DNA of 64,000 nucleotides from Cornus controversa (lineage: Eukaryota; Streptophyta; Magnoliopsida; Cornales; Cornaceae). Under the pieces are notes generated by a model. The model had not been told where the DNA came from. It saw only the letters and a program-made list of their open reading frames with translations, and ran no database searches. Where the stretch lies: assembly GCA_026545225.1 (NCBI GenBank), contig CM048848.1, positions 48,082,306 to 48,146,305 on the forward strand. Reading direction: 5' to 3'. Of this stretch, positions 11,658 to 58,109 are shown one piece after another (the stretch's first letter is position 1; each line of letters begins with the position of its first letter). A program made the translations under genes and the position numbers.

Positions 11658-12201
11658 CTAGGAAGTATGGACACGGATACGGAATATGGGTACAACATGA
11701 TACGAACACGGCGATACGAAAAATTTTAAAAAAACAGGACACGTACACGGCGGGGATACGGCTATAAAATAATAATATAATATATTAATATATATTAATT
11801 ATTTAATAAAAAATACTACATTACAGAAATAATTCAATTCATCATCATGCAATTAAGAACCAAACAAACTTATAAACAAAGATGGACAAATATATTAAAA
11901 TAAATTAAAGAACTAGACTTATTTAGTCTTCTACGTGTATTTAGCTTATATTTTAATCATAACTTAGTATCATACAATTTATATTCGAAATATTTGAATA
12001 TACATCATTGTTATGAAGTGTCCAATACGTTTTCAAGAAGTGTCCGAGAAGTGTTCAAGGAGTGTCCGAGAAGTGTCCTAAAAAGAAAAATGTCAGGACA
12101 CTTCTACGAAGTGTTCGACACGTGTCCGAGGAGTGTCCGACACGGTGTCCGAGTGTCCGATACGGGTACGACACCCTCGGTGAAGTGTCCGTGCTTTTTA
12201 G
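11658..12201. mobile_element. hAT-like MITE with GTGTCC word repeats
   Basis: Ends: CTAGGAAGTATGGACAC on the left and, in reverse complement, CTAAAAAGCACGGACAC on the right. Flanking 8-mers ATCTTCTA (11650-11657) and ATCCTCTA (12202-12209) agree at 7 of 8 bases, the hAT duplication length. Both ends are packed with GTGTCC/GGACAC and GGATACGG words, while the middle is plain AT-rich DNA. It is 544 bp and non-coding; short open frames in it are by-products of the word repeats. Confidence 0.8.
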
Positions 12202-12340
12202 ATCCTCTAGTATGATATATCTCTATATTATTATTTTAATATTTTTTATAAAAATAATTTTATACAAAATTTTAAAACTCAATTATTTCAATTGTTAGCA
12301 ATGAATAAAATATTATTTTTTCTTCTAATATATTTATTGA

Positions 12341-12500
12341 CAAATAAAAAGACATTACATATTTTTTTGCATAAATAAAGAATCAAATAAAAAGACATTA
12401 TATATTTTTTGCACAAATAAAGAAATAAAATAAAAATACATTACGTATTTTCTCACAAATAAATAAATAAAATAAAAAACATTACATATCACCATCTTCT
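12341..12500. repeat. Degenerate tandem array, about 45-bp unit, about four copies
   Basis: Recurrent text of the form AAATAAAAAGACATTACATA followed by a T-run and CACAAATAAAG, repeated with indels. AT-rich and non-coding. Confidence 0.6.
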
Positions 12501-12819
12501 TGATGTAATTCTATTATTTTAAATATTTTTTCTCACAAAATAATTATATGTTACATTATTAACTAATTTTATAATTTGATATATATAATAATATTTAAAA
12601 CAATTTTTTTTTTATATTTAAGAAAATTGATTTCAATACAATTCTAATTAAAATAGAATTTGAACAGAGAAAGATAGAGACACAAAAAGAGAGAAAGGAG
12701 AAAAATTAAATAAAAAAAATAGATGGGGTCTGCATGTGCTCTTTACATGAGTCCTATATATAGAGAGTCTGCGAACAAAAAACACATGGGGCCCACATTT
12801 GAGAGAGCCTTATACCATC

Positions 12820-12872
12820 TCAAAATAATCTCTACATCCGTTGTAGAGAGCCCTATAATGGATGCCCTTAAT
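12820..12872. repeat. Possible terminus of a Tourist/Harbinger-like MITE
   Basis: Ends in GAGAGCCCTATAATGGATGCCC followed by TTAA; a terminus of the form GGGCATCC next to TTA/TAA is typical of Harbinger-type MITEs. I could not find a clear left end in the AT-rich DNA upstream, so only one terminus is claimed. Confidence 0.3.
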
Positions 12873-14655
12873 AACCCTCTATATATAAAATTACACAAAT
12901 AACCTCATTTAATTTTGAAAATCAAAATCAAAGTCTTCCATAATAACTCCCTCTTCTTTTCTCTCTCTTTAACATCTCTATCTTTATCTCTCTAAGTTCC
13001 CCAACGCACGATTATCACTCTCTCTAACTCCCCTACGCACAACCACCAGCTCCAACGACCCTTACTTTTTTATTTTTTCCTGTCAACGATCTCCCACCTC
13101 TACCCTTGCGCAAGTATAACAATTACACACTCTCTCTCTCTCTCTCAAACTAAACCCTATTACATATCCTCAACATGGGTCATTATTTGTGGCGCACACA
13201 CGATGTGGATTATAAGATGTTGACTTAATCAAAGTTGATGAGTCATGTCTTATTTGCGTTGGATATAATGCAAAAAACTCCCATTTTTACTACCACCTTG
13301 ATTTTTTGGAATATGACAATGAATTAAAATATAAGATGTACTAATTGTTGTTGCACCGGTTATATAGAGCATGATAAGAATGTCAAATAACCAAGATAAT
13401 GAGTTAGTTTGCATGTGCTTATTTCTAGAGTGCGTTCAGTTGAACTATTGCAGACTAATTGGTGGCGGGAATGGAAGTCTTCATTACTCAATTGATATGT
13501 GAGAACTGTCAATTGTATGTGCGGTGGTGTTGGCATGAGCAGATCGCTAATGCGTAGGAACGAACCGAGGATCCTTCCGAAGCTATTTGATTAATATTAG
13601 AAGATTCTACTTTCAAGTTTGATTCAAGTTTGTATGATTATTCAGACTCAGGGGGTGATGACTTAGTTACTCCACCTCCCTACTCTAGTTTAGTAAAGGA
13701 AATGATATATAGGACATCAAGAAGAATTACAACAATAAATAAAAGTTGATAAAATTTTGACTAAAGTTTGTCCAAATGGGGTCGTGGACCAAATATAGGA
13801 CATTGGAATTTCAGTGGGTTGTCATTGTAATTTTAACATGTTATATTAGATGTTTCTCATGTGTTCTTAATGTTGAAAGTCTAGTTTGGTAAACATGACT
13901 AATTGGAGCTAAGGTTAATCATTAATATGTACATCTCTTTAATAAATGTTACCTCTTTAAAAAATCAAACGAAAATTCTATAAATATTTTGTCTATTATC
14001 TTCTAATAAATTTCCTACTTCATTTACAAATTTTTGGTGTTGTCTTGGTCCTAAAGGAACAATGAAATAAAAAAAGTGGCACTCATCCTCACTAAAAGTT
14101 TTTAGTTACTCAAATGCAGTGAAAGTGTCACGTTCGTGTAGTAAAATTATCACAACCTAAGATATTGAAAATTCATGATTAATTTTACGAGTCTAGTGTG
14201 CATATAATAACTTTCCAAATCCATTTAAAGCTCGTGGCCAAATCATGAAAAAAAAAGTGATTGAAGTTGAAGAAAAAAATTGAGACCGCAGTGCACTGGT
14301 GCTTCCCCTTAGGCATTGATGCACTCTATTAGGAGTTAATTGGCACAATTCAAATGCACTGGTGCTAACTATGTTACTGTAACTTAAAATTTTTTATTAG
14401 ACACAAGCAAGGGTGCATACAACATATCATGCATCGCTTTGGCCGAGGCCAAATGCATTGGTGCAAAATACGTTGCGCCGGTACACTATTGCCTAGACCC
14501 CACTAGTCGCATGGTGCAACTTTTGCTTCAATGCGAATCTGCGATGGTTAGTAGCTATCACGTCCCAAATTCCAACACCCGAAAGGGCATGAAAAATGGA
14601 GTTGACTAAATAAAATCTCAACACCTTGCAACTACAACACGGTATGATATCACGT
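12873..14655. other. Non-coding repeat-derived DNA
   Basis: Contains TC-rich tracts (12950-13150) and no gene that I can support. At 14290-14480 the word GCACTGGTGC and variants recur about five times. At 14555-14590 a stretch ending AATTCCAACACCCGA resembles the LTR start at 14656, so the right part is probably decayed gypsy LTR. Confidence 0.4.
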
Positions 14656-16267
14656 TGTCATGCCCCAATTTCTAACACCCGACTAAGAGTTGGGAAAATC
14701 GCGCGCGGGGTGGGGGGGGGTGGGGGGTGGAGGTGATTAATGAAGATTAAATGGACACATACCCATAAGCTACTCTAGTCCATAACTTAACTTCTTTTGA
14801 AATTGTAATCTCAACTTAAATCTTATTCCATTGGAAAGAAGATTCAAAATTACTCAATTTTAAAAAAAACAACACTCAATTCTGATTTGAAACGAAGAAA
14901 TTATGCCCGTTTGAAGTTTGAACCAATTTCTAAACATGCTGTGAATAATAACCTCGATTAATCGAAAATGGACGTTCGATTAATCGTTGATGTATCAAAC
15001 CGAGTATTGAAGCTTGCTGGTTTGGGGTTCAAAAATTTCAATTTTTGACTCTAAAACGTCAATAGGACCACGATTAATAGTAATTAGAGGTTCGATTAAT
15101 TGAAGTGCTTCGATTAATCAAATTGGGGAGTTCGATTAATCGAAGTTATTCTCGACAAAAGAATTATAATTTTCCACATTTAATCAAACTATGTCTAATT
15201 CTTAACTCTTAGCGCACACACATTTTCCTTAATTCAACACACATCTAGAGTGGTCCATCGTAAACATATAAAACATTTAAATCATAATGCCACCATATGG
15301 AACGGAACTCGTCTGAAATGTGTACATTAAATTCAAAATGCAAGTTTGTCCACCCGATATACAAAAATGTCTTTAATGTCCAAAAGAAAGAAAAACCATT
15401 GGAACAATAATCAGAATAATACAGTACACATGCTCATGGTACTAATCCAATTACATATATTCTGTAAGTGCCAACATGGCATACATAGATATAAACACAC
15501 ATAATTTAAAATATTGTTCGGCACTCCCAACATAACACTGTTAAGTGTCCTTCATAGTTGGTGCCTTATCTGTAAAAGTGTTGGGGGGAGGGGGTGAGCA
15601 TACAACAAACCCAATAAACATGATTCACCTAACTTAACAATGATTCAGGCAGCCATGCATGAATGCAAATGGTATTTCTATTCGACTACATTGCATACTT
15701 CGAGATGTTCATATTCAATTCTTACACAACATTGGAAACAAGTATGATATCACATGTCTCAAATATATATATGCAGTTTAACATGAAATCACATTCACAA
15801 TTAAACTCAACACCATGTATCCTCTGAAATCAAACATGTGAAGGCTTTTGATTATCACAACCATAGTAAGTGTCCTTGAGAGACCACATACTCTGCTTAT
15901 GATTTACAGGTTGCTAACCTGTCGGTAGTGATATCTGCTTAGCCAAGTTTTGGGCCTTTCACCATAGAGCTATGGGCCCTTCTTGCTTCTCACACACTTT
16001 TCTCAAAATCAACAACCACCACAAATTTTGCATTCACAATGCAATCTATCCGATTCATAAAAAACTAATCACTATACATTTTTAAGAAAAGCTTCTTTTA
16101 TGCAATTCATTCAACCCATGGAGTCAAAATTCACATATGTTTCCAAATGAACACAATTGACCCGCCATAAACACATGTGCTTCAAAAACTCATACAAGCA
16201 TCAATTTCTCAAAAACCTAAGTGTACAGTACACTAGTACACCTCATTCACACTTTCAATATACAATA
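14656..16267. mobile_element. Decayed Ty3/gypsy-like LTR-type sequence
   Basis: Begins TGTCATGCCCCAATTTC, close to the start of the gypsy LTR read on the - strand from 24551 (TGTCACACCCCAATTTTC). It carries a G-run (14708-14730) and a cluster of ATTAAT palindromes (14951-15150). The family and right end are uncertain because a copia solo LTR is inserted at 16268. It looks old and broken. Confidence 0.4.
14951..15150. repeat. Cluster of TCGATTAATCGA palindromes
   Basis: Six near-copies of the perfect palindrome TCGATTAATCGA: near 14952, 14976, 15067, 15092, 15109 and 15131. Spacing is irregular (about 17-90 bp), so this is not a simple tandem repeat. Confidence 0.85.
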
Positions 16268-18664: not shown

Positions 18665-18767
18665 CAATCAACTCACATATGGCACCTTAAACACATATAT
18701 ATCATTAAACAAATATATGGCACATAAACTTCACTTAGAACATGTTGAGATTGTTGTCATGTAAATG

Positions 18768-19110
18768 CAATTTTGTCTATTGACACAAATTACGGTGATT
18801 CTGGATGCAGTTTTGTCCACTGTCACATTCATGGTTATGACGTTGTCATTTACACGCAGTTTTATCTATTGACACATTAGTTGGTGGAAGACGCAATTTT
18901 ATCTATTGACCATTCGTTGTTAGTTGTTATCACTATAGACGCAGTTTTGTCTGTTGACGCGACCCTTGGATTTGGCGATTATCATTGAGGGACAGTTTTG
19001 CTCATTAAGACACCTAAGGGTGTACTTGTTGTCATTTAGACACAATTTTATCTATTAACACATTTGTTGAGGTAAAATTTTCATCATTAAAGATAGTTTG
19101 GCCTATGGAT
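18768..19110. repeat. Tandem array, about 48-bp unit, about eight copies
   Basis: The core (A)CGCAGTTTTGTCTATTGACAC, or a variant of it, recurs at about 18768, 18803, 18857, 18893, 18940, 18992, 19041 and 19093. The units are diverged. The array lies just downstream, in element orientation, of gypsy integrase text, where such arrays are known near the 3' end of some gypsy lineages. Confidence 0.75.
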
Positions 19111-19489
19111 GTATCGTTATGGGTAGTGTGACCATGAGATATTAAGTTTTGATTGTCATATGAGATTTGACTCAGTTTTGGAACATGACTAATTTTGATG
19201 TCATAAAAGGATGACGATGAGAATACTGTTAGTTTTGTCTTGGTTAGTTGTTAATTAATTAAAGGATTGATACGTGAGCAATAATATTTTTTGCAGATTT
19301 TGTTTTTCTATGAACCGTGTCTTGTAGTACCGGTGGGATTGAAATGAGCTAATGATCTATTGTGAGACTTCGAGGGTAAATATTCCATATGTTTGGGAAA
19401 ATGTGGTTAAACCAGTTGAGGATTTAGTTATAAATCCTTAGAAAACGTTGGCCTTAGGCCACGTATGGGAAGTGTGACTTTGGGCTTAT

Positions 19490-20290: not shown

Positions 20291-20299
20291 AATGAAAAT

Positions 20300-21910: not shown

Positions 21911-22706
21911 GAGCTAGTTTAGTATGCAAGAATAGAGGTGGAATGGAATGGTCATTCCACATTTGATTCCCTTTCTCTTGTTTACTATGCTACATTAGAA
22001 ATGGAATGAGCATTCCTAGTCATTCCCTTGGAATGCTCATTCCAACAAAACAATTCCTCTTCTAGAGTTATGGAATGGCCATTCCATTCTCACTTATTAA
22101 AATCATCATCTCTCTCTTCATTAATTTCTCTCTCTTTTTTACAACTCACTCCAGAATAAAATTCATTTCTCTCTCTCGTGTATATATATATAAAATAGGT
22201 AATTAGCATTAATTTCTCTCTCTCTATTTATATGATATGTATGTTATATAATTGTCACACGCCTACATATATATATATATCACATGCTCATATATATAAC
22301 TTGTTATATTTTAAGTTGTGAAAGAAAAGGAAGGTTTTTGTTTTATCACTTTCAGTTTTTAATAAAGTATTAATTTTTTTCCGTATAAAAGATTATATTA
22401 ATCTCCTGAGTAGAATAAAAAGACGAATTATATCTTGATTTAAAAAGTTTTAATTGAATAGGTAATTAATTTTTTTTACATGATAATTAAATTAAAGTTG
22501 GCCAAATGTCTCATTTTTAAAATTGATTATGTTTTATGAAAAAGTATAACATGTTGGAAGGTATTATCATTTCATTCCTACATGATTTTCTATCCGCAAC
22601 CAAACATTGGAATGAGAATGGTCATTCCATTCTATTCTCATTCTCATTCCATTTCCAACTTCATTCCATTCCTATTCCATTTCATTCATGCGTACCATAC
22701 TAGCCC
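21911..22706. mobile_element. MITE rich in GGAATG/CATTCC words, nested in the gypsy LTR
   Basis: Left end GAGCTAGTTTAGTATGC; right end in reverse complement GGGCTAGTATGGTACGC. GGAATG and CATTCC words are dense in both arms, with a long AT-rich centre containing TC and TA microsatellites. I see no clean target duplication, so hAT versus Mutator type is undecided. Non-coding. Confidence 0.72.
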
Positions 22707-23225
22707 TGAAAGTGTTGAATGTGTGGGATAGCTTGAAACTAAAGCTATTAAGTTAGGGTGTGTGTGTTGTGTATTTTAATTTCATTTCTAGAGCATAAAA
22801 TGAATGTTTTTCATGAAATATATGATGTATATAGAATTCTAGGTTGAAATCCTTATTCTATATGATTCTACATATGTTTTTCTTGTTAGAAATAGTTAAT
22901 ATATGCTTAGAATTACATGAATTACTTATATGTGCAATGTGGGGCATGAATTTCATATATAATTTTTTGGAAAAAAATGATGAAAACTTGATTTGGGGTT
23001 TTATCTTATGTATGTGTCTTATGGTTCTTGAGTGACTTACTAGAATTGAATTAGGACATACAATGGGTGCAATGCATCGAACTTGTAAATGTGTATGCAA
23101 AATATGAAATATTTTGTGTGAGTGTGGGGTGTGTCTCGAAAGTGACTCACAGAAAAGTAGTAGGAGAACATATCCTCTGGGGTTGAAAAACCTCAAACTT
23201 GCCCAAGATGGAACTTCGGTACGTA

Positions 23226-29490: not shown

Positions 29491-30815
29491 TGTTGACCCA
29501 AATGATTTCAACCTGAGAACAATCTAGTAATTTTGATGATTACAAACCATTAATGCTATTATATACTAACATCTAAATTGAGTGATTGCTTAGAATAATT
29601 TTTTAAGATTCAAGAAAGCATTCACGTTATGAAATAATCATGAAGAAGATGACATTGAAGAGATGAATTACATGACATTGAAGTTAGAACCTCAAAGCTT
29701 AAAGATACATGCCAAAGAAGAATATATGGGGTAGTATAGCATGGTGAGAGCTAGGACTCAAATGTTAAAGTTATTGTAGAATAATATGCTTGAAGCTAAA
29801 TTTCTCTATTGACCATGCACTTCATTCATATCATGCATTGGTTTTAAAATATTTAGAATTATGTCTTGACTCTTGTTTTTCAATCCATAAAGACTTATCA
29901 TGCCCAAAGCCTTAACCAACATTTCAAAGATTCATTTTTAAAGTTAAGTAAACTTTGAGATGCCTGGAACTTTAGTTCTAGTCGTCTGTAAGTGACAGAA
30001 CTTTTTTCGCATTTCTGAGGCTTTTTTTTTAAAGCCTGAAACCTGTTTCAGGCCCCTGGAAATGGAGTTTCAGACGTCTAAAACAAGTTTTAGGTGCCTG
30101 AAAGTTCATTTGAAGACGTCTGTAAATAGATCCAGACGTCTGAAAATTGACTAATTCAAACGTTAACGGCTAGTTTTGGCATTAGATGTTCCTAACTACC
30201 TTTCAACCGCCATATTTTTTAAGGACACTATATATGAATCTTAGCTCTGCATTTATGAACCACCAAGCACATTTGTGAGTATTTATTTGAGCTATCATTG
30301 CAATTAACTCTCATTCATCTACATTCAATTAACTAGAGCTTCATTCTTGTGATTCTACATTAACTCTAGTAGTGTGAGCTTGAAATTGTGTACTTATCTT
30401 TGAGAGAAACTTTTTGTACCATAAATTATCTTTTATAGTATTTGTATAGGGTTATTATTACCCTAGAAGCCTAAGTGAAAAAGTTCACCTAGCAAGAAAA
30501 AGTATGTTTGCTCATTTGTAAAGGTTTGCTCTTCATCGACAAGGAGATGTCGTATTGGATTTGAAAAACTCTCAAGAGGGATCTTGAGTTGTGGAGTAGG
30601 AGAATCCGAACCACGCTACATCCTCATGCCAATTGTATTTGAATTTCTCTTTACCTATCTTATTTCAATTGTGCTTATTTGAATGCATATTTAGTTATAT
30701 ATTGCACTTTAAAATTGTCCATTGATATTGTTTTGCACATCTTTTAATTTGGATTAAAATCCATTGTTTGTCAAAAATCCTATTCACCCCCTCTAGGGTA
30801 AACACTTGGGTAACA
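29491..30815 (+). mobile_element. Solo LTR of a Ty1/copia (SIRE-like) element with perfect target duplications
   Basis: Starts TGTTGACCCAAATG and ends GGGTAACA just after CTATTCACCCCCTCTAGG. Perfect 5-bp duplications AACTT lie at 29486-29490 and 30816-30820. It is related to the LTR at 16268-18664 by its start, its tail and its layout (word repeats, then a TATATA box near 30230), but is only 1,325 bp. AGACGTCT-type words fill 30045-30150. No internal region is present. Confidence 0.87.
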
Positions 30816-31508
30816 AACTTTTTTCACTTTTTATATCTTTTCTTCTTCTTTATTATTTTCCTAGTTGAAACTGAATCCCTTATAGGGCTTGACCCTCGGG
30901 TTCAACTTAATGAGATAGAGGATATATCATAACAAAAATGATCTCTTACCCACCAGTGAGCAAAAAATTCTTCCACACCATGTATGGTAATAATTGAATA
31001 TGATTACAATGATTTTTGAAAGTTACTTTTTTTACACTTAGATCATATCTAACGGTTATTATGTTTGGTGTGTAGAAAATTTCTTGTTCGCCGGTGAGCA
31101 AGAGATCATTACTCTATGTCATAAAATAAGGACAATTTTATGAACTTATAGCTCGTTTGGTAACCGTTTATGTTTAATATTTATTGTTTAAGTGTTTATA
31201 TAAATAGTGTTTATGTTACGATTTTGTTTATCCATAAACATGAGTTTTGTTTGGTAACGAAAAAACGTTTGACTTATTTTAAAAATCATAAACAGAAAAA
31301 CATGTTTGTTAACCTTAAACTATTTTTTTTAAATTAAACAATAAACTGTATAAACAGTCAAATTCATGTTACAACAAATCTATACAAGAATAAAAGAGAA
31401 AGAAACATACATAAAAAAGAAACTAATAATATTGGGTTACATATGTCTACACACTGCAAATTATATTATAAAACTAGAATGACCCACAACCCAGAAGGTC
31501 CCAACAAG

Positions 31509-32082
31509 TAGCGATGCATATGGTTCGATTCTTTACGATTATTGGGGGAACCAGAACAAGAATAATTCCCAATAGTTCCTTAATTTTGAAACCAGAACCA
31601 TTGAGTTCGGTTCGATTCAATTTTTTACAGTTCAAGTTTCAATTCTTTGTACACTCCTAAATTTGTTACTAATTAATAAAAAAGTTTAACTTTTTCTACT
31701 AGTAAATTATAAATTTGTTTTTCACATTTTTTTAATGCGTTCATGACTTTTATTATTTTCTTCTTTTTTTTTCAAAAATAATAGAAAGATTATTATGTGA
31801 GTGTATATGTGTGTGTGTGTGTATATGTATTTTTTGTGTGCATTGTGAGTAATCAAAGAATGTATCAACAAATTAATTAATTTTTAAAAATTGTGTCTGC
31901 ATATACATGCCAATGTTGTTAAAAAAATAAACTTTTTTTCCTTTCTCTTATTCCAACATTTGTTATCTAACAAAAGATAATAATGGTTATGATAGGAGTT
32001 GTATTTAACCTTATAATAGTTATAACAACTCCATTGTTTAAACTTATTTACATAACAAAAGGTTATTATAACTATTACAATG

Positions 32083-32129
<47 letters not shown>

Positions 32130-32237
32130 CGGTTCTAGAACGGTTCCTAAAATTTGGAACCGAAACCGGAACTGTAGTAAATGGTTCAGTTACAGTTCTT
32201 TACGCATCCGGTTCCACCTGTTCTTTGTGCACCCCTA
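31509..32237. mobile_element. hAT-like MITE with GGTTCC/GGTTCGG words
   Basis: Left end TAGCGATGCATATGGTTCG; right end in reverse complement TAGGGGTGCACAAAGAACAG. Flanking 8-mers CCAACAAG (31501-31508) and CCAATAAA (32238-32245) agree at 6 of 8. Words such as GGTTCGATTC, GGAACC and AACCGGAAC are packed at both ends; the centre is AT-rich with a (TA)n run. Non-coding. Confidence 0.72.
32087..32126. repeat. (TA)n microsatellite
   Basis: About 20 TA units by direct reading, inside the hAT-like MITE. Confidence 0.95.
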
Positions 32238-32245
32238 CCAATAAA

Positions 32246-33165
32246 AACAAAATATATATAATTATGGAAAAGTTAAAAATGTTTCAATTTGTACGGAGTG
32301 AGAAGAGGGATTTGGAGGGCACACTCTTGCTCTTGAACAATTCTTCTACTACTACTTTCTTTTTCATTTTTTGATTTCTATTTTCCTTTCAACACTAAAA
32401 ATGAATGAATAACAAAATACCATTCTTATTTCTTTGACAAGGAGATGGTTGGGACTTCTTTATTTTTTTTTACTCAAAATATATATATTTTTAGCACAGG
32501 TCCCCTAAGTAACTATTTCTTATTATCAAGTATATTAATAATTATTCATATTGTATCCAATATTTTTTTTCCTCAAGTCAATTTTCCTCAAGTCAATGAT
32601 ACTCTTCAATTCTATTTACACTTAATAATTTTAATATTTTTATCATTGTATCAAGTAATAACCTTTTATAATTTTTTTCTTTTCATTTTCTCACTTTTAG
32701 TTTTAATTTTTAATTAAAATAATATAATCACAATTTTAGATAAAAAAGAAAATTATCAAACATGTTTATCAAAAATTTTATTTTTATAAATAATAAATAC
32801 TAAACATAAAGAGTTACCCCTTAATATTCATATTTATGTTTATAAATATTATTTAATACAATTTATTTTTAACAAATAATAACACACTATTTGAATCTTA
32901 ATTACTGCACTGATAGCGCATTTCTATTTTTTGGCTTGCTGTACGGTTACCTGTCAATCTGTCATGCATATTAGTTGAAAAGAAAATTTTAATTCTATTT
33001 AATGTGCCCAAAATAAATTTCTGGCTTTATACCTGTATATAAATGGGGTTGGTACATACAACCTATGGTACGTCATGACCTCAAACCTTCCTTTATGTCA
33101 GTTTCTAGTTTCTATAATCTCTCAGGCCATTCCCCCGTCTAGCCCCATGGTTGTGTTCTTCTTGG
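32246..33165. other. AT-rich intergenic DNA
   Basis: Beyond the MITE arm ending near 32820 I see no feature. The short + frame at 32445-32717 is T-rich and lacks protein-like composition. Confidence 0.5.
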
Positions 33166-33173: not shown

Positions 33174-33703
33174 CTATGAAGTACGGATACTTTCTTGGAG
33201 GCGCCGTGGTCGTATCGGATACGTATCCGATACGGATACGGTCAGGATACGGCCGGACACGTATCGGATACTCCGTGAAGTATCCGTTTTTTTTTAAATA
33301 ATTTTTTTATTTTCGGATACGACAGGATACGGCAAGGATACGGTAGGATACGGCAGGATACGGCTAGGATACTTCTCGGATACGTTTGATTTTTTTTTTT
33401 TTTTGTTAATTTTTTTTTAAAGATGGTAGCCATATTGTAATATTAAAATTTAAAAAGCTTAGTTAAGATGTGGGGCTTAATTTGTAATAAATCAAAAGAT
33501 TTTTAATGTTAGAAAAAAAAAGATCATTTAAGTTAAAACTTAAAACTTAATTTGTGTTCTATTAATTTTTTTGTATAATATATAAAAAATATATATATAT
33601 ATATTTGCCGTATCCCGCCGTACCCGTATCCTATTTTTTTGAGATTTGCCGTATCGCCGTATCCGTATCGTGTCGTATCCGTATCCGTATCCGTGCTTCA
33701 TAG
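33174..33703. mobile_element. hAT-like MITE with GGATACGG words and perfect 8-bp duplications
   Basis: Ends: CTATGAAGTACGGATAC and, in reverse complement, CTATGAAGCACGGATAC, differing at one of 17 positions. The 8-bp duplications GTGTTATG at 33166-33173 and 33704-33711 are identical. GGATACGG/CGTATCCG words are packed at 33180-33380 and 33605-33695, with an AT-rich centre. It is 530 bp and related by its termini to the element at 11658-12201. Confidence 0.9.
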
Positions 33704-39049: not shown

Positions 39050-41580
39050 ACCTATACTACTATTAAAAGTACAAAGGAGTTTTTTAGTTTCAGTACACTA
39101 TTTTTATAATTTTAAATTAAAAAATAGAATTACCCAAGCAAAATATTTTCCTTTTTTATTTAAATTATTTCCCAAGCAAAACCCTTTCCTTTTTTATTAA
39201 CCCTTTCTTTTTATTTCTAATTTCTAAATTTACTTTTTTATTTAAATTATTTCCCAACCAAAATCTTTTCCTTTTTTATTAACCCTTTATTTTTATTTCT
39301 AATTTTTAAATTTACTTTTTTATTTAAATTATGCAAAACCCTTTCCTTTTTTATTTAAATTATTTCCCAAGCAAAACCCTTCCTTTTTTTATTAACCCTT
39401 TCTTTTTATTTCTAATTTCTAAATTTACTTTTTTATTTAAATTATTTTCATTTTTTATTAACCCTTTCTTTTTATTTCTAATTTCTATCTATACTACTAT
39501 TAAAGTATAGAGGGTTTTTTTTTAAAATTTCAGTACACTATTTTTTTATTTTTAAATTAAAAAAATAGAATTACCCAAGCAAAACTCTCTCCTTTTTTAT
39601 TTAAATTATTTCCCAAGCAAAACTATTTCCTTTTTTTATTAACCCTTTCTTTTTATTTCTAATTTCTAAATTTACTTTTTTATTTAAATTATTTCCCAAG
39701 CGAAACCCTTTCCTTTTTTATTAACCTTTTCTTTTTATTTTTAATTTCTATCTATACTACTATTAAAAGTACAAAGGGGTTTTTTTTTTTTTAATTTCAG
39801 TACACTATTTTTTATTTTTAAATAAAAAAAATAGAATTACCCTTTCCTTTTTTATTTAAATTATTTTCCAAGAAAAACCCTTTCCTTTTTTATTAACCAT
39901 TTCTTTTTATTTCTAATTTCTCAATTTAATTTTTTATTTAAATTATTTCCCAAGCAAAACCATTTCCTTTTTTTATTAACCCTTTCTTTTTATTTCTAAT
40001 TTCTATCTATATCTATATCTATACCTATACTACTATTAAAAGTACAAAGAGTTTTTTAGTTACCTCTTTCCAACCTTGAGGCACTGAAAAAAGGTATGGG
40101 ATAATTGGACTCCATCCAACGCCATGCCCTCCAGACTTCTCATCTGGTCTGAGGTACGTGCACCAACCTGTTTGATCATTTAATTTCTAACGAGTGGTGA
40201 CAATTCACTTAAAAAATAAAATTAAATCAGAAGGTGATCAATATGATCTCATTTCTTTGGTCACCCTAAAAGTTTAAAATTAGAAATTTTATGCATATAT
40301 GGTTGAGGCAAATTGTGGTTTTGTTTGTTATTCATGGAATTATGTATACAAGATTCTATCTTAATGTTATTTCTGAAAGTTGTTTGCGAAGAATTATGTT
40401 CAATTGTTGTATCTCATCTGGTCTGAGGTACGTGCACCAACCTGTTTGATCATTTAATTTCTAACAAGTGGTGACAATTCACTTAAAAAATAAAATTAAA
40501 TCAGAAGGTGATCAATATGATCTCATTTCTCTGGTCATCCTAAAAGTTTAAAATTAGAAATTTTATGCATATATGGTTAAGGCAAATTGTGGTTTTGTTT
40601 GTTATTCATGAAATTATGTATACAAGATTCTATCTTTACTATCTTAATGTTATTTCTGAAAGTTGTTTGCGAAGAATTATGTTCAATTGTTGCATCTCAT
40701 CTGGTCTGAGGTACGTGCACCAACCTGTTTGATCATTTAATTTCTAACGAGTGGTGACAATTCACTTAAAAAATAAAATTAAATCAGAAGGTGATCAATA
40801 TGATCTCATTTCTTTGGTCATCCTAAAAGTTTAAAATTAGAAATTTTATGCATATATGGTTGAGGCAAATTGTGGTTTTGTTTTTTATTCATGGAATTAT
40901 ATATACAAGATTCTATCTTTACTATCTTAATGCTATTTCTGAAAGTTGTTTGCGAAGAATTTATGTTCAATTGTTGTATAGTTGGTCTGATGAGAGTTAT
41001 GCTATCTAATTCATTGCTATCAAGCATTTGAAGCTAAAGTTGAAGATGGTGTCTATATTCTTAGTCTTTTGAGTTCCCTTTCAGTAAGTTTGGCTAAGCT
41101 TTAATAATATCTTCAGCAGCTTTTGTATCCGTTATTCTCTAATTTAATTGGTTTATTTTGCTATTTTAATTCTGTATACACGTGTAATTTGATTTCATTG
41201 TTTGTATCGGCTTATATGTGAATTTTATGACAAAATGACAAGTTGCAAAGGAAGACATCAATAAAAATTACGTAGTAAAAAAAAGTAGAAATATAAAAGG
41301 ATAAAGTGTTGAGAATTTCTAAAAGAATAGTAATAGATTGTTTAAGAATAGTTATAATTATACCTTTTGATTTCTTATAGTTTATACTTATTCCTTCCAT
41401 GTGAATAATAGTTAACTTATAGTTTTATTTTTTTCAACAAGTGAATTTATATTACTCGTACTAAGGTTACATAATGGAAATAGTTTTGGGTGTTTTAATT
41501 AATATGTTATAATAGTTTTGAATAATTTAGATGTTATAATAAAATTTTAATTTATTTTTTATCCACGTGCTTTAAACTAG
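39050..41580. mobile_element. Helitron-like tract with repeated 5'-end motif and internal tandem repeats
   Basis: The motif TATACTACTATTAAAAGTAC followed by AAAGG occurs near 39052, 39491 (variant), 39757 and 40029, each followed by similar T-rich text. It resembles the 5' ends of plant Helitrons. A CTAG at 41577-41580 followed by T, preceded by the short palindrome CCACGTG, could be the 3' end. No Rep/helicase is present. The copies at 39-40 kb show end-to-end duplication of the 5' region. Assignment is tentative because the 3' hairpin is weak. Confidence 0.4.
40138..40985. repeat. Three tandem copies of a 274-283-bp unit
   Basis: CATCTGGTCTGAGGTACGTG occurs at 40141, 40415 and 40698. The copies are almost identical. 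Copies 2 and 3 share an extra TACTATCTT that copy 1 lacks, giving periods of 274 and then 283. Non-coding. Confidence 0.95.
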
Positions 41581-44681: not shown

Positions 44682-45232
44682 TAGGGGTGACCACGGATTG
44701 GATCTGATCGGATCGGATTATGCATAATCCTAATTCGATTCGCATATTACGGATTGACGAAAATTCAATCCGATCCGATCCATGGCAATTCGACGATCAG
44801 ATCCGTGATTGAACGGATCAGATCGGATTGGCGGATTGGGCCTGTACTCCTATTTGAATTTTTTTTTTGTTTACTTCAAAAATTATAACAGAAAAATTCA
44901 CAACACTTTTTAATTCACATCTCAAATGAACACAATTGTTAAATAAACAAATATAATATATATTGAATTTTTAGGTTTACACATGTAAGTGTGTAGCATA
45001 TTATATTATTATACATATAATTACTAATTATATATATATATATATAGCCACGGATCGAATTGCGGATTGGATCGAATTTCTGAACCTCTAATTCGTAATC
45101 TGATCCGTGGCTAACAAATTCTAATTTTTTAATCCGCCACCAATCCATTAGCTAACGGATCGGATCGGATTCGTCCGGATTTGATCGGATTGGATCGGAT
45201 TCGTGGATTTGCGAATTTTTTGTGCACCCTTA
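44682..45232. mobile_element. hAT-like MITE with GGATCGGATT words and perfect 8-bp duplications
   Basis: Ends TAGGGGTGACCACGG and, in reverse complement, TAAGGGTGCACAAAA. Identical 8-bp duplications GTATAATA at 44674-44681 and 45233-45240. GGATCGGATT/AATCCGATCC words are packed at 44695-44850 and 45045-45215, with an AT-rich centre. It is 551 bp, inserted in the outer MITE. Confidence 0.92.
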
Positions 45233-45385: not shown

Positions 45386-45932
45386 TAGAATTACAAATGA
45401 ATCAAGTTATTTGTGAAGAACTCGAATTCGACTCAACTCGTCTAAGATTAAGTTCGAACTCATTGGTTAAGCGAATAGTTATATGATTCTACTCCAGATA
45501 TTAACATACATGTAGAGACATTGAGCCAAGTTCGAGTTTCATTTCTAGACTTGATCCTAAACGGTATTGAGCTAAGCTTATCTGGGTTTGGCTCATCTAG
45601 ATTCGTGAACATGAACTCATGTAAGCTTACATGTGTTTGTGAATATAGGCTTTCATATAGGACTTGTATAGACTTATGAACACGTTCATAAACATAGGAG
45701 GCTTTTGTAGGTTCATGTTCATGAACACTTATTATGAGCGAGTCAAAGTGATATTAAACATATGTTCAAATTGAGCCCGAATTACTTTTGTTATTAAAGG
45801 AGTTGCACCTGAGTCAATTTTGAATTCAACTTTTTGAGCTCGTCACGTTTTTGAATTAAGCCCACAAATGAACGAACCGAGTCTCAACAGGCCCAATTAA
45901 GCTCGACTCCGCTCAGTTCTTTTACGACCCTA
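45386..45932. mobile_element. hAT-like MITE with GAGCTCGA/TTCGAGT words
   Basis: Ends TAGAATTACAAATGAATCAAG-type and, in reverse complement, TAGGGTCGTAAAAGAACTGAG; most differences are transitions. Flanking 8-mers GTTTCAAG (45378-45385) and GTTTTAAG (45933-45940) agree at 7 of 8. Words of the GAACTCGA, GCTCGACTC and GTTCATGAAC types recur. It is 547 bp and older-looking than the GGATCGG element next to it. Confidence 0.75.
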
Positions 45933-46829: not shown

Positions 46830-48330
46830 TGTTAAAAAATAAGTTTTTAATCACGTAACATCAAATATTATGATATAATGATAAATAAATAAGAACGAAG
46901 AATTAGGAAAAACACACCAAGAATTATATGTAATTCGGATAAACAAGTTTAGCTAAGTTCACGGAGAGTTTGATTTCAATATATAGATTATAACAATATA
47001 AGTTAAAAGATTGTATCGAGAGTACTCTTAACCTTTAACACATACACCCAACCTCACAAAAAGAAATCACAAATTCTAAATAATAATTATCTTACTAAGT
47101 GCCTACTTAAAACAATGAATGTGACTTCTCAATTTCAAAGAGAGTATTGCCTCTACACAAAAGTTATGACATCTTAACTACAATGAAAGTATTGTTTTTA
47201 CACGAGTTCTCTCATGAGACTACACCTCTCTCAATCTCACAAGTTTCAACTCATTACCTAAGTATCTATTATAGATCAAGTTCTAAACTCAATTTATTGG
47301 TGGACAAGGATTACAATTTCTTGGAGTCCAAGACTTATCGAACAAAAATTTTCTAACATAACACAAGTCTAAAATAAAAACCTATTGATACAGAGATTTG
47401 AAACACAATTCCCAACAATCTTCACCTTGGCTCAAATTCCATCCAGGTAACCATCGATTTCCACAACATTGATCAGTACTTCTCAATTAGTCAAACCTCC
47501 AAGACTCCACCATCTCTACTCAAGCTCTATGCTATGTAACCAAGTTGATTAATTGACTTCACTTGCAACTAAAATCCGTTGCAACATTTGTTGAGACTCC
47601 TTGTGTTTTTTGGATCTCTTTCACCTTTAGTTTCCATCATTCCCTTTCAACGGCCACACTAAGTCGTATTGAAATAGGATGTCCTTCACCCTCCTTTGTC
47701 ATAGGGTGAAGCTATTCTTACCATAAAATCTCTCCACTTTGTACTATGTGGCAATATTATCAGTCATGATTGTCACAAATGCCTAAGACGAACAATATCT
47801 GTGTTATGAAAAAAAATCTAGATAATTTTTATCAAACACTTTGTGTGCACCTTAAATATCTGATACCAATTTGTGGAGAAAATAAGCTTTTAATCACATA
47901 CCACCAAATATTATAATGTAATGATAAGTAATAAAAATGAAGCAATTCAGAAAAACACACCAAGAATTATACGTGATTCGGCTAAACAAGCCTACATTCA
48001 TGGAGAGTCCAATTTCACTATATAGATTGTAACAATATAAGTTGAATGATTGTATCAAAAGTACACTCAACTCTTAACTCTTGTACACCCACTTCACAAA
48101 AAAAAAATCACAAATTCTAAATAAGAATTCTCTTACCAAGTGCTCTCTCAAAATAATGAAAGCGACATCTCAATATCAAAGAGAATATTACCTCTACACA
48201 AAAATTTTCTTATGAAACTACATCTCTCTCAATCTCGCAAGTCTCAACCCATTACTTATATATCTATTTATAAGGTTTAAAATCCAATTCTTCAAGACTT
48301 TGTCTAACAAAATATTTCCTTGCATAATAC
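46830..48330 (-). mobile_element. Short LTR element without coding region (copia-type, non-autonomous)
   Basis: The left LTR 46830-47417 ends CAATTCCCAACA; a purine tract on the - strand (CCAAGGTGAAGAT) adjoins it. The right LTR begins at 47872 (TGTGGAGAAAATAAGC) next to a primer-binding site, TTGGTATCAGA, on the - strand at 47861-47871. The two LTRs match over some 430 bp with many differences, and the right one lacks its outer end. The internal region is only about 454 bp and shows no gag or pol. It is an old, incomplete copy. Confidence 0.75.
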
Positions 48331-52136: not shown

Positions 52137-52490
52137 AGCTTTTTCTTACTTGAATTTGAATTTTCTAGGGACTCAAACAGTCATATTTCTTTTCTCTTTT
52201 TTTTTTTTTTTGTTTGAAGAAGAAGAAGAATAAGAAGGAGAGTTAAATGGGTTGAAATTGATCTACGGCTTGTGACGGAAGAAGCTGGTGATGAGGATTA
52301 TAGTAATGTGAAAATTATGAGAGTATGCAGAGCTCACACCCATCACTCAGAAGAAGCACAGAAAAAGAGAGACAGAGAGAAAAAGAGAGTCAGAGAGAGA
52401 GAGAGAGAGATTGCAGGGGAGGATGAATCAGATGAGAGAGAGGGAGACAGAGGAGAGAGAGTTCTCTGGGTAGGAGAGCCAGATGGGGCC

Positions 52491-52497
52491 TTATAAC
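52491..52497 (-). promoter_or_regulatory. TATA box of the HD-Zip gene
   Basis: TTATAAGG on the - strand, about 355 bp upstream of the ATG, followed by a GA/TC-rich leader (52380-52460). It is the best TATA candidate in the flank. The start site is inferred to be near 52460. Confidence 0.55.
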
Positions 52498-52950
52498 AAG
52501 GAGGGACTTCCCTTCTTGGTAAACAGGCTATAGCTTCCGAAGTTACTATAACACCCCTCCTACGGCAATATTACGAAAAACAAAACCCAAAAAATAGATA
52601 TACAATAATAGAAGAACGGTAAAATTAAACACTAACATAGTTAATTTTACAAGATCAATGTACAATATTAAAGCAGTTGGTATAATACTTTTAATAAAAA
52701 ATAATGAATTTTTTTTTTTTGTTATAAGGAAAAAAAATTTGAGTTTGAAAGTTGTGTATAGTCATTTTTAATACCAGTTTTCTTATTGAATACCACTGGA
52801 CTCCATGTACTGGAAAAATCTCACCACTAATAACTCTCCATTTCATATTATTTTCTAAAATAATGTGAAATAGAATTTTAATATTAGTGGGATTCTTATA
52901 AATAGGGAATCCCCGAGTATTCAATAATTATTTCATACAATGCTCTTAAG

Positions 52951-53928
52951 TTCCGTTTGGATAAACAAGAGAGAAAAAAAAATGAGATGATGACTTTAGT
53001 TATGAGAGAAAAGAAAGAAAGAAAATGATAACTTTGGTTATGAGAGAAAAGAAAATAAAGTAGAGGATAACAATAATCTCTATTTATGTTTGGATAAATA
53101 TAAGATAAAAGAAAAGAAATGACAATATTCTTGGATAAGATAGGTAAGTGAAAAGAAAAAAAAGGATAACAATCAAATTACTATCATACCCTTTTATATT
53201 TAATGGAACATGAGTGGAATAACAATTTTCTCTTTCTAATTGTTGAGGGTAGTTTCAGAATTATGAAAGTACTACTTAACTCACTATCATTTTCCTCCCA
53301 ATCTTCTCATTTTTGGAAGGATAGAGTATAAGGGATTAGGAGGGTAACTATCCCTCCAAATCCCTCTCAATCGTCTCATTTCTCTTCATTTAAAGTACCA
53401 AAATACATAACACACTATCCTCTCCTTTCTTTTCTCTCCTTATCATTCCAAATCCTTTAATCCAAACGATGCCTCACGCTTCGTTTAGATTGAGGGATTC
53501 AGAATGATAAGGAGAGAAAAGAAAGGAGATGATAGATCATGTTGTGTTTGGATAGACATCATTAAAAGAAAAGAAAGAATAAGGAGTTATCCCTCATATC
53601 TCATCATCCCAAAAATGGAAAGACTATGAGGGAAAGTATAGTGTTTAAGTAGTACTTCCGTAATTTCAAAACTGCACTCAACAATTAGAAAGAAAAAATT
53701 ATTATTCCACTCATATCCCATAAATATAAAAGGATATGATAGTAATTTAGTCATTATCATTTCTCTCCCCTATCTTATCCAAACAAGAATACTATTATCT
53801 CCTTTCTTTTCTCTCATATTTATCCAAACATGAATAGAGTTTATTGTTATCTTCTCCTCTCATTTCTTTTCTATCAATACTAATGTTATCATCTTCTCTA
53901 TTTTTTCTCGTGCCTATTCAAACGAAGC
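52951..53928. mobile_element. Foldback transposon, nearly 1 kb palindrome, upstream of the HD-Zip gene
   Basis: The two halves (52951-53470 and 53476-53928) are reverse complements along most of their length. The tips are TTCCGTTTGGATAAAC and, in reverse complement, GCTTCGTTTGAATAGG. Mid-arm TTTCTAATTGTTGAG pairs with CTCAACAATTAGAAA. The centre pairs GATTTGGAATGATAAGGAG with its complement. CTTAAG flanks both sides (52945-52950, 53929-53934). A diverged copy of the surrounding DNA without the insertion lies at 54375. The element has no coding frame. Confidence 0.87.
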
Positions 53929-53934
53929 CTTAAG

Positions 53935-54570
53935 AAAACTTAAGCTTTTCATCTTTCGCTTCGAAATGAGAGGAAATATCAGTCCATGGCATGCTTTGTT
54001 TTTAATATCAATTGACTAACCTTTTCACAAGTCTCATGAAATTTTTTATTATAAGGTATTAATGAGTCTAACCATAGTTTCTTGTGTCATTGACAGCACA
54101 CAAAAAATATTGGGTACTTCGGGGTATCGTATCCTAGACCAATGGTGAATTGTTAAGTTTTATTATCAATTTTTTCATTGATCGGGGTACGGTACCTCTA
54201 GAGTTTTGAATATTTTTCTTTTGCACAATCTTTTAAGTTTTTTTTTTCTAGGTCAATTGCACAATCAATATGTATGACTAAAAAAAATCTAAATTAAACT
54301 CATTCTTTCGTTTGATAGTGAACATTTCATAAACATTGTTTATAATTTTCATTCTTTCATATTAAACTGAGAATGCTCTTAAAAAGACTTGAGCTCTTCA
54401 TCTTTTATTTCAAAAAGAGAAGAGATATCAATAGATGACGTGTTTTGCTAATTATTTAAAATCAAATGACTAATTATAGGTAATTGCCTTTTCATAAGTT
54501 TCATAAAAAAATTAAAAAAATTACTATAAGGTACTAATGAGTCTAATCACACCTTCTAGTATCTTTGTGT
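53935..54570. repeat. Two diverged direct copies of a sequence of about 190 bp
   Basis: Copy 1 (52937-52950 plus 53935-54110) and copy 2 (54367-54570) share ATGCTCTTAA, CTTCATCTTT, TTTTCATAAGT-type text, AAGGTA(T/C)TAATGAGTCTAA and more. Copy 1 is split by the foldback element. The origin is unknown; it may be part of a decayed LTR. Confidence 0.75.
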
Positions 54571-55283
54571 TAAAGGGTTGTTGTCTTACATTGGATCCGA
54601 ACGAAGAATGTCTTTGAATTATAAGTATGAGTATGCAACACCACCCAACAGCTTAAGCTTTTGGATCGATGGCAAGCATCCAACCCTTTAGAAGTGATAT
54701 CAAAACAGGCCTAATCTTTGATCCAGTGTCACACTAAGCACCCACATAGGAGGTGTCCGAGTCCAAGGTGTTACTGGATTCTCAACACCTTGTTACTGTG
54801 ATCTCTTAAGTATGCTAGAGAGTTCTTCTACCACATCGAATTCAGATGGAAAGTTTAAGCTTTTGAGTCAAATGGCAAATGTCGGACTTGTTACACCTTG
54901 TTACCATGATCTCTTAAGTTTCATTTAATTTTTTGGATCAGTGTGCGATGTATACAATACCAAAATCGATATGTATGACTACAAAAAAAATTTAAACTCA
55001 TTCTTTTGTTTGATTGTCAACTTCAAAAAATAAGTGTGTGGCTGAAAATTGAATCACCGAACAAGACACAAAATTTATGAATCCTACCATGCGTTAATAG
55101 TGGGCTCACAAATTTTGTGTCTTGTATAGTTCAAATTTCACTTCCCCAACCATTTACTCATCAACCTTTTATAGCATTCTTTGGTAGGGTCAAGTGACTC
55201 AAGTAGGGTCAAGTTCATTTCTAGTGCACGGGTAAGATGAGGTTTTGTACTAACTTGTGGACATATTTTGGATTAGAATAAAT

Positions 55284-55331
<48 letters not shown>

Positions 55332-57347
55332 TAAATTTGAATCAAGAAAATTAAATTTAAAACTTGTAGTTTCTTGTTGCAACAATTGTTGGAACCAGAT
55401 AAATAAAAAGTGACAATTTTAAATTATAAGAGGAAAATAATAATATCCTGAAAACAAGATTTAAGAAATTATGAATAATTTCAAATCAAGTGTGTCATGT
55501 ATAGGCTCACACTAAGCCTTTTTTATAAGTGGCTCACACTAAGCCCCTTTTATAGGCTCCATATTTATGAGTGCTTAAATAATGTATTTAATCAAGCAAC
55601 GCAAGAGTCAGGGGTTACAAATCATTTATGAGTGATTAAATATAGACATAATGATAGAAGACTAAAAGACAGGAGTTACAACTGTTATAAATGATGAATT
55701 AACTACGGAATCTTAAGAGACGAGAGTTACAAGAAGCCCAAAAGTATTCTTATTAATGAATGATTAAGTGAGCTGATATTGACACTCCACCAATATCCTC
55801 TGCACTTCACCTCCATCTTTTTTTTTTTAAATAAAATTACAAGGGTATCTCTTTATTATGCAATTTTTTATTCTTGTATTTTTAATACATTGATTACCCT
55901 TATTTGATAAGGTTAGAATTATTTACTCCAAAATGCAACTTTTCTCTCACATTCCCTCTCTCTTTTGGCATGAAAATACTTCTTCTCTCTCACATTCCCT
56001 CTCCCCTCAATGTTTGAGTTAGAGGAAGTCATTGAAATTATTAAGACAAGCACTATTGAAGAGATTTCAGAAATTTATGAATCACTCAACCCTAATTTTC
56101 ATAATAATGTGATTTTTTTTTCTACTTTAATCTTCAGACTATATTGTTTGAGTTGATTTTTAAAATTTTATTTCTTCTTGTTGAATCAATTTATCAATAT
56201 TTATTTTAGAAGTAGAAAAGTTTAGGATTCAATATGATGATTTAGAAAATATCGATCAAATGCATGTGATTGGGATAATAAAAGTTACGTGATTAGATAA
56301 GTTGAAAAGAAGTTGTTAATAATATATTACCTAGAGAAATATTAAAAAAGTATTTGAATTGGAAACAAACATTATATCAATGAATAAAACCTATTTGAAA
56401 AAAAATGAATTGTATGTAAAATCAAAAGAAAGTTTAATTTTACTTAAATAAAAATTATAATATATAATTCTTTAAGAAAACTAAGGAAAGCTTTTTTATT
56501 TTAATACGGAACTTTTAGAAAGTAAAAGATGAAAAGAGAAAAACATGACTCTATGAAATCATTTTCCAATTGTAGTTGTCTTAATTTAGCTAAGGAGTCT
56601 TTGCACCAAAATTTCAAAAAAAAAATAAAATTAATATGATATTTTTCTTCCTTTGCTTTTATTTTTATCCCTTCCTTTTTGTTTCGTTTGTTCACAAATT
56701 GATGATACGTTTTTAATTTTTAATTTATGTTATTACATGTTGGGTGAGTAAAAGACAATATTTTAAAATTTGGATTTTTTAGTTATATAGGATAGAAACA
56801 CGAACAACAAGTTTCAATTGAAAAATATCGAAACTACAGTATCCGGCCGTATGGTAATAAGTGGATTGTTATATTGTAAACTTAAAGCAAAAACAAGATC
56901 AACCACAAATTACTTGGAATAACAAGGATGCAATTGAAAAAACTTTTTTTTAAGAAAGATAAAATAGAATTAGAATTAAGTCGTGATTTAGAAGGGCAAC
57001 TAGGGTACTAAAAATATAAGAATCAAAGATGGTATAGCAGATGATCACTTTTATAATTTTACTTTAAAAGAAAGGATAAGGGTGAAGTGCCAAAGAAATT
57101 GGTAGAGTGTAAATATCAACCTCCATAATTAAATGATATATTTAATCACAAAATCAACAAATTATGAATATTTATTTTTGTAATTGATCAAGAGAGATGA
57201 AAGAGACCACTGCAAGTTTAAAATATATGCAATTTTGAAACGTGTTTTAACATCAAGTACATTTATAACACCATGTTGTGATAATCTTTACCTGTAATTG
57301 AATCAGTGTTGCTAACTTCATAATAGGCAATTAGGCTTAAAGAGTTA
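54571..57347. other. Repeat-derived, AT-rich intergenic DNA
   Basis: No gene recognised. At 54590-54910 the text ACACCTTGTTAC followed by (T/C)(G/A)TGATCTCTTAAG occurs twice, suggesting old LTR-type DNA. A TG/TA/GA compound microsatellite lies at 55285-55332. A short duplication (GGCTCACACTAAGCC) lies at 55505-55545. CTTCTCTCTCACATTCCCTCTC-type text occurs twice near 55935-56005. Confidence 0.45.
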
Positions 57348-58109
57348 CAAGGCTGGCCCTGGGCCAGGCGGTGGCCTAGGGCCCCCAAATTTGGAGGGCC
57401 TCCAATTTTTGCCCAACTATACTTTTGGGCCTTATTTAAAAAAAATACTAATTGGCGTCTTTTAAAAGAAATACTAATGGAGCCTCTTTTAAAAGAAATA
57501 CTACTAGGTCTCATCTAAAACTACTATGCCTCATTTTTAAAATAAAAAAAAATTTACTAATTATTGTTGATAGAGAGTATTGGACCTCATTTTAAAAATA
57601 AATAAAAAAAATTATTGGTTCAATTACTATATGCACTTTTTTTTTTGTTTCTTATTCTTTCTTCACAAGTCACAACTCGTTTCTTCTTCTTTCTTCACAC
57701 CAGCACTCAGCAGCAAGCTTTTCCTCTCATTTTGCTAGCCGCAAGCAACTTATTTTCTCTCATTTTTCCTCTTCTTTCTTCACTTTAATTGATAATTTTG
57801 CAGCTCAAAATGCAAGACGATCACATTTACTTTGATATGAAGTTCAATTTTGATTTTTGTGACTAAGGTATGTTGAATATTTTCTTTTAATTTTTTTATG
57901 TGAACTGAATCATGCTATTTATAATGTACCAAGACAAGAATTTTTTTTATTTTCAACATTAATATATTTTATGTGATTATCGTCTCATTTTGATAAATAT
58001 TTTGCACTCCTATAAAATTTATGCGCATGTGAAACTTTATGTATAAAGGGCCTCATTTAAAAGTCTGCCTAAGGCCTCTCAAATTTTTTGGAATCTCAGG
58101 GCCGGCCCT
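57348..58109. mobile_element. hAT-like element with GGCCGGCCC palindromic ends and perfect 8-bp duplications
   Basis: Ends CAAGGCTGGCCCTG and, in reverse complement, CAGGGCCGGCCCTG. Identical duplications AAGAGTTA at 57340-57347 and 58110-58117. GGCC-rich words (GGCCTAGGGCC, GGGCCTCC, GCCTAAGGCC) mark both ends against an AT-rich interior. It is 762 bp with no transposase. Confidence 0.92.

Follow-up and report, generated by a model that had tools for sequence, protein, structure and literature searches.

What do the short words that are packed at the ends of small non-coding elements do? The question is raised by a 64,000-bp stretch of the Cornus controversa genome (contig CM048848.1, positions 48,082,306 to 48,146,305; hereafter, the window), which contains six elements, E1–E6, resembling members of the hAT superfamily. 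A preliminary description had assigned each word to a different transposase. We consider it very probable that the elements are non-autonomous hATs and that their word arrays, inherited from full-length elements, are bound by the BED finger of the related transposase and load a multimer of this protein. The words of E4 and E2 are found again in complete hAT elements of the same genome, at either end; hence, both the hAT assignment and the interpretation of a word as the putative site of its family's transposase are supported indirectly.

Complete hAT Elements with the Same Words

Transposase loci were sampled with the PF05699 profile (150 listed matches of 889 candidates), and the 3' flanks of 17 loci were read. 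A word array together with an end resembling a terminal inverted repeat (TIR) was found in nine of these flanks (L081, L082, L083, L084, L086, L087, L091, L102, and L104), the TIR being mismatched at L082 and L102. The words of E2 and E4 with a TIR-like end were read on the 3' side of two further transposase loci, C9:8266717 and C7:38112184.

Six complete elements, delimited with the help of upstream stretches, have perfect (8/8) 8-bp target-site duplications (TSDs). These are A91 (4725 bp, TSD TGCTCTCA) and A86 (4755 bp, CCCAAATA) with the word of E4; A87x (5836 bp, CCTAGTAC) with the E2-type word CGGTTC; and A83 (4502 bp, ATTATGGG), A84 (5558 bp, CCTAACCG), and A81 (4857 bp, CTTGAGAG) with CGGG-type words. 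In the order given, the terminal 2 × 250 bp of these elements contain 31, 29, 28, 27, 16, and 31 words, and the 4.0–5.3 kb of interior 1, 1, 1, 2, 1, and 0. At the ends of A87x and L102, CGGTTC is found at ends of the TAGGG(G/C)TGCACACGG type. Thus, complete hATs with the word of a short element, as expected from the preliminary description, were found for E4 (A86, A91) and for E2 (A87x), at both ends in each case; no search dedicated to partners of E5 and E6 was made. Neither partners lacking the words nor another duplication length, either of which would have spoken against that description, was encountered, and as partners were recognized by TIR and words, this does not constitute an independent test.

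The protein of A87 has the zf-BED (PF02892), hAT RNase-H (PF14372), and hATC (PF05699) domains, all over the cut-off, and its C-terminal part matches the Hermes transposase (E = 2.5e-13). PF14372 and PF05699 were also recognized in the protein of A86, whose BED match, at 17 bits, falls short of the cut-off (20.6); the BED score of a piece of A84 is just under the cut-off, and those of A81 and L101 are just over it.

The ends of E4 align to those of A86 and A91 with 78–85% identity over 122–217 bp, and E4 looks like an internal-deletion relative of these elements. In equal 170-bp ends, the trinucleotide CGG occurs 20 times in E4 vs. 29–33 times in A86 and A91, and 8 times in E2 vs. 46 times in A87x. 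Since the short elements have smaller arrays than the complete ones, the suggestion that amplification of the site makes them grow finds no support; with the ends of E4 aligning to those of A86 and A91, the arrays look inherited.

In the mechanism that we favor, the subterminal arrays are most likely recognized by a BED zinc finger at the N-terminus of the transposase that a related full-length hAT encodes, and many bound copies along each end would help the transposase multimer to load and to pair the ends, along the lines published for Hermes (PMC10368747) and Ac (PMC3260210). The TIR tips would then be cut, and the element would be inserted with an 8-bp duplication. Short elements would have inherited their arrays from the full element, those of the E4 and E2 types being mobilized by A86- and A87-type proteins.

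Several observations weigh against this mechanism. Seven of the 17 3' flanks (L088, L089, L090, L092, L106, L108, and L110) have no array, some arrayless flanks containing TIR-like octamers with one mismatch, and one more flank (L085/A85) is unclear; many hAT-like genes of this genome thus lack arrays. No transposase partner of E1 or E3 was found among the 17 flanks; A85 had been a candidate partner of E1 and was rejected, as at L085 an E1-like full-length element is nested in an A83-type element. A single stop interrupts the frame of A91, and A81, A83, and A84 have fragmented frames (introns or damage). The orientation of the arrays is opposite between the two ends in E1, E3, A83, and A81, and it is not in E4, A86, and A87x. 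Finally, work on Hermes cautions that a conspicuous word may not be the true site, GTGGC having given way to AAGT there (PMC10368747).

As a separate observation, long hAT transposase-like frames without an array in the fetched 3' stretch are present at L088, L090, L092, L106, L108, and L110; domestication or truncation of elements may account for them.

Elements of the Window and the Packing of Their Ends

All six elements look like insertions (coordinates are given without strand). Three of the hAT-like miniature inverted-repeat transposable elements (MITEs) are E1 (11658..12201; CTAGRAAGCACGGACAC-type TIR, word GGACAC, flanks ATCTTCTA/ATCCTCTA), E4 (44682..45232; TIR TAGGGGTG, word CGGAT(C/T), TSD GTATAATA), and E6 (57348..58110; TIR CA(A/G)GGC(T/C)GGCCCTG), the TSD of which, AAGAGTTA, matches at 8/8 positions only with the end shifted by one base, to 58110. 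E3 (33174..33703; TIR CTATGAAGCACGGATAC, word GGATAC(GG), TSD GTGTTATG) represents a sister subfamily of E1 in reverse orientation. E2 (31509..32237; TIR TAGGGGTGCAC, word CGGTTC/GGTTCC, flanks CCAACAAG/CCAATAAA) is an old hAT-like element within a larger repeat, and E5 (45386..45932; ends TAGAATTA and TAGGGTCG) is an isolated decayed element with no significant word. With the end of E6 corrected, the coordinates, flanking duplications, and absence of open reading frames given in the preliminary description hold, the longest stop-to-stop frames in the elements being 66–101 aa.

The TSDs match at 8/8 positions in E3, E4, and E6, at 7/8 in E1 and E5, and at 6/8 in E2. Random pairs of ends in the window match at at least 6/8 positions in 0.97% of cases, at at least 7/8 in 0.135%, and at 8/8 in 0.015%, a background against which the ends of the elements were freely chosen. 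The TIRs are short, imperfect in E2 and E5, and fall into three groups: CTANRAAGCACGGAYAC (E1, E3), TAGGGGTG-like (E2 and E4, with E5 a looser member), and CAGGGCCGGCCCTG-like (E6). The traits of the hAT superfamily, i.e., 8-bp TSDs, short TIRs, and subterminal repeats, are present, the repeats being strong in E1, E3, and E4 and weak in E2.

To describe word packing, the commonest 6-mer on both strands in the terminal 160 bp of each end was compared with the maximum of 200 dinucleotide shuffles. The excess is clear for E1 (GGACAC, 10 vs. 5), E3 (CGTATC, 16 vs. 6), and E4 (AATCCG, 11 vs. 8). Packing is weak in E2, with CGGTTC at 5 vs. 5 and the 5-mer GAACC at 9 vs. 6, and marginal in E6 (AGGGCC, 6 vs. 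5), where the previously proposed word GGCC mostly belongs to the TIR. E5 has no excess over shuffles (AACTCG, 3 vs. 4), and GCTCGA, proposed earlier as its word, occurs in it once. The claim that both ends are packed with one word is, hence, borne out strongly for E1, E3, and E4, weakly for E2, marginally for E6, and not for E5.

Three arrays were delimited: the right one of E1 (12018..12201, minus strand; GTGTCC with periods of 11 and 22 bp), the left one of E3 (33174..33385, plus strand; GGATACGGCA in steps of 10–11 bp), and the right one of E4 (45046..45215, plus strand; CGGAT in steps of 5 and 10 bp). When the 64 kb were scanned in 160-nt segments, the right end of E1, each end of E3 and of E4, and two segments at 21.9–22.8 kb reached counts of at least 6. 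Counts of 5 were found at 14981, at 30001, and, with ATGAAC, in the central part of E5; these words differ from those of the preliminary description. The two segments at 21.9–22.8 kb coincide with a further word-packed non-coding element with TIRs at approximately 21916–22707 (CATTCC/GGAATG, ends CTAGTWTRGTAYGC), absent from that description; its flanks match at 6/9 or 5/8 positions by eye, and its superfamily is uncertain.

Sister Subfamilies with Different Words

Aligned in opposite orientation, the consensus sequences of E1 and E3 are 82% identical over 128 bp at one end (E = 6e-28) and 69% identical over 108 bp at the other (E = 9e-7). Judging from both shared ends, E1 and E3 are sister subfamilies of one family. 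A single base separates their words, GGACAC and GGATAC. Eight copies of E1 contain 111 instances of GGACAC and 12 of GGATAC, and 30 copies of E3 contain 586 of GGATAC and 29 of GGACAC. The fourth base of the word differs at 10 of the 13 aligned sites, compared with 30 of the 222 other columns (Fisher p = 1.4e-6), and E1 and E3 thus appear to have undergone a near-concerted switch of the word.

As E1 and E3 form one family, the claim that each word belongs to a different transposase fails for this pair; it has no content for E5, which lacks a significant word, and is questionable for E6. Words do differ among complete elements that belong to different transposase subfamilies, as would be expected if the window contained six families, each with its own transposase and with MITEs growing by amplification. 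Yet with E1 and E3 united, the word of E5 not above chance, that of E6 mostly part of the TIR, and fewer sites in the MITEs than in the complete elements, we find this reading hardly credible. The six elements are real; the six independent word families are not.

The change between E1 and E3 could also reflect a context-dependent bias toward C-to-T mutation within ACA, with no functional switch. Among A(C/T)A sites outside the word at which either consensus has a C, four of five differ, in line with such a bias; yet four of these five are the word-like CGAYAC. When all A(C/T)A sites are considered, the two consensus sequences differ at 9 of 11 word sites and at 4 of 20 others (p = 0.0017), the unchanged ones being mostly sites in AT runs. 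Of 27 aligned CpG sites, usually the first to decay, 21 are conserved, and CG/CA accounts for only one of the six differences. The concentration of changes at the fourth base of the word likewise speaks against a general bias. We regard mutation bias as a substantial possibility, albeit on balance the less probable one.

CTANRAAGCACGGAYAC ends occur 2691 times in the genome, and the same pattern read backwards does not occur (0). Among the first 100 of these ends, CTATGAAG is accompanied by the T form of the word in nine cases and the C form in four, CTAG(A/G)AAG by T in 17 and C in 58, and 12 are of other kinds; hence, the outer TIR and the word appear to be only loosely tied at such ends. 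Reading of the first 100 places by eye revealed no convincing pair of E3-type ends around a transposase gene. At G000:C4:31505170, an E1/E3-type MITE end is located, by coordinates only, in the 3' part of a hAT element.

Structure of the Words

Among 32 trinucleotide classes in the terminal 170 bp (both strands), CGG ranks first to fifth by enrichment in E1–E4 and in the six complete elements, and it ranks 17th in E5, 18th in E6, and 23rd in the element labeled E7; the ranking is relative to mononucleotide shuffles only, and the core was noticed post hoc. Counts of flanking triplets and spacings cover the elements other than A84 and E2. CGG is followed by ATT or ATC in 20 of 21 cases in E4, 31 of 33 in A91, 28 of 31 in A86, and 12 of 12 in L104; by TTC (17/50) or TCC (11/50) in A87x and by TTC (15/22) in L102; by GGC, GTT, or GTA in A83 (24/34) and by GGC or GTA in A81 (21/39). 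In E1, ACA follows CGG in 10 and precedes it in 8 of 21 cases, and in E3, ATA follows in 13 and precedes in 18 of 36, so the fixed part is readable on either side.

The commonest same-strand spacing of CGG is 5 bp in A91, A86, A87x, A83, A81, and L104; 5 bp is tied with 10 bp in E4 and with 6 bp in L102, and in E1 and E3 the commonest spacing is 6 bp. Exact 5-bp spacing, commonest in five full elements with TAGGG-type ends, is what slippage of a 5-bp unit predicts, and the tandem periods of 10, 11, and 20–22 bp in E1, E3, and E4 also agree with the idea that the words arose by slippage as the ends expanded in a minisatellite-like manner, play no part in binding, and are kept only because the copies are young. 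Against this stand the confinement of words to the ends of all six complete elements and the enrichment of CGG in two different TIR groups. Moreover, in 30 copies of E3 word positions diverge less than others (1.1 vs. 1.9% at non-CpG and 2.9 vs. 4.1% at CpG positions), although misalignment in poly-A/T runs may inflate the values for positions outside the words. Slippage is, in our opinion, improbable, and binding of the arrays by the transposase is the preferred reading.

An alignment of BED domains has an invariant GT..L core and variable flanks, with no simple code. A residue-to-base code was considered and is not claimed: L101 and A86 share WVSANGT and have different words, and A87 and L101 share a word and have different fingers. 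We raise, as a tentative suggestion that may well prove wrong, that BED-containing hAT transposases read a two-part word composed of an invariant CGG core and family-specific flanks (CGG-ATT/ATC, CGG-TTC, CGG-GGC/GTA, and, in E1 and E3, A(C/T)A on either side). The flank would switch near-concertedly at a dozen scattered positions, with the scaffold between them kept, as in E1 vs. E3, and within one genome BED fingers and their words would form a natural series of pairs.

Copies in the Genome

The 771.7-Mb assembly containing the window was searched for copies, and 40 candidates per element were scored out of 3915 for E1, 2820 for E3, 1750 for E2, 1206 for E6, 926 for E4, and 144 for E5. Among these 40, 39 other copies were found for E1 (88–93% identical), E4 (84–88%), and E6 (80–88%). 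For E5, the 40 scored contained no second full-length copy, the best others being 66–86% identical over parts or 95% identical over 44 bp. Thus, E1, E3, E4, and E6 are short, non-coding, multicopy elements with TIRs, i.e., MITEs, and E5 is not multicopy among the candidates scored.

The 8-bp duplication was seen at copies of both subfamilies checked. Perfect TSDs were scored at 26 of the 30 best E3 loci fetched (window copy included), and reading of the printed flanks added two more, L046 and L050. Of eight E1 loci (window copy included), five have a perfect TSD, two match at 7/8 positions, and one was scored otherwise. Scans of viral and genome contigs with TIR patterns yielded 0, 1, and 11 loci, the 11 being in bacterial records and taken as chance matches. 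Relatives of E6 at C2:82.56–82.65 Mb are arranged in near-regular steps of 6.7 and 8.0 kb, which suggests that they sit in larger tandem duplications.

The copies of E2 have a different history. In 27 of 30 E2 loci the target 8-mer CCAACAAG or a near variant is present on at least one side (by eye), and most of these 30 best copies share further flanking sequence. Flanks in common with the window copy (31190–32730) were found at approximately 20–26 of the other 29 loci on the left and 19–22 on the right. The matched part of this host repeat occupies 31151..32752 (no strand assigned) and probably continues to approximately 32820. When the joined flanks were used as a query, 30 of the 40 scored places were unbroken over the junction, and 10, including the window's own, were split. 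In all 10 split copies the right piece starts at 351 or 352, and in eight the left one ends at 358, yielding an 8-nt overlap that corresponds to the duplication. The inserts span approximately 110–780 bp by coordinates, and only two split copies, the window's own and C1:45.778 Mb, overlap an E2 match.

Given the unbroken and split host copies, the simplest reading is that most E2 copies examined, i.e., the 30 best and not all 1750 candidates, are passengers that descend from one insertion into the repeat and were then copied along with it. Spread of E2 as a family by its own transposition was rejected for the copies read, which have common host flanks and a common target 8-mer. The copy number of a small element may derive from a larger carrier repeat, a trap that is corrected here for E2. 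At C1:13.08 Mb, a copy of E3 lies between two pieces of one copy of the E2 host repeat.

Other Repeats in the Window

Two direct repeats (58337–58659 and 63679–64000), 95% identical, 5.34 kb apart, and clipped by the window end, could be long terminal repeats. A tandem repeat at 40138–40976 has three copies of a 283-bp unit with 95% matches, and a tandem duplication of approximately 1.04 kb occupies 46836–48206, its pieces being 75–85% alike. Nested inverted arms of 126, 97, and 80 nt, 74–85% complementary, are located at 53008–53909.

Comparison with Known Systems

A family that changes its site has a dozen or more copies that must all fit a single protein. The genome offers pairs of BED fingers and word arrays, with dependent MITEs, for the E4- and E2-type words, and the sister pair E1/E3, with words one base apart at most aligned sites, makes site switching testable by binding assays. 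Titles and abstract beginnings of the open-access literature, which leaves most subscription papers outside, contained no recognizable account of family-specific words in plant hAT MITEs. Repeated subterminal sites of hAT elements are already published; the more novel aspects here are the pattern of CGG plus flank and the near-concerted change of word from E1 to E3 or the reverse, both proposed from sequence comparison.

Maize Ac has an 8-bp duplication. The word AAACGG is not dominant in the elements studied here: the commonest words of E1–E6 differ from it, and it occurs six times in the terminal 250 + 300 bp of A81 and 0–2 times in the other five complete elements, so by this trait these elements do not belong to the Ac family proper. 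In maize, AAACGG repeats in the terminal 200 bp bind the Ac transposase (PMC3260210). Ac/Ds resembles the present system in its repeated transposase-bound end sites and in short non-autonomous relatives that share little beyond the TIR and a few hexamers (PMC3260210), and differs in that the words here are CGGAT(C/T), CGGTTC, CGGG(G/T), and GGAYAC, and the TIRs are TAGGGGTG or CTANRAAG.

The presence of subterminal repeats has been named among the traits that define hAT ends (PMC4890040). The fish element Tgf2, with 17 and 18 subterminal repeats at its two ends and an N-terminal zinc finger contributing to binding (PMC4890040), is similar in this respect; Tol2, also from fish, differs in its motif, AAGT (PMC10368747). 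The housefly element Hermes shares with the elements reported here the match in the hATC sequence and the BED zinc finger; each of its ends also bears subterminal repeats, to which the BED domain binds (PMC10368747). Unlike those of Hermes, the arrays in Cornus are dense and GC-rich, with steps of 5–11 bp over approximately 170–250 bp.

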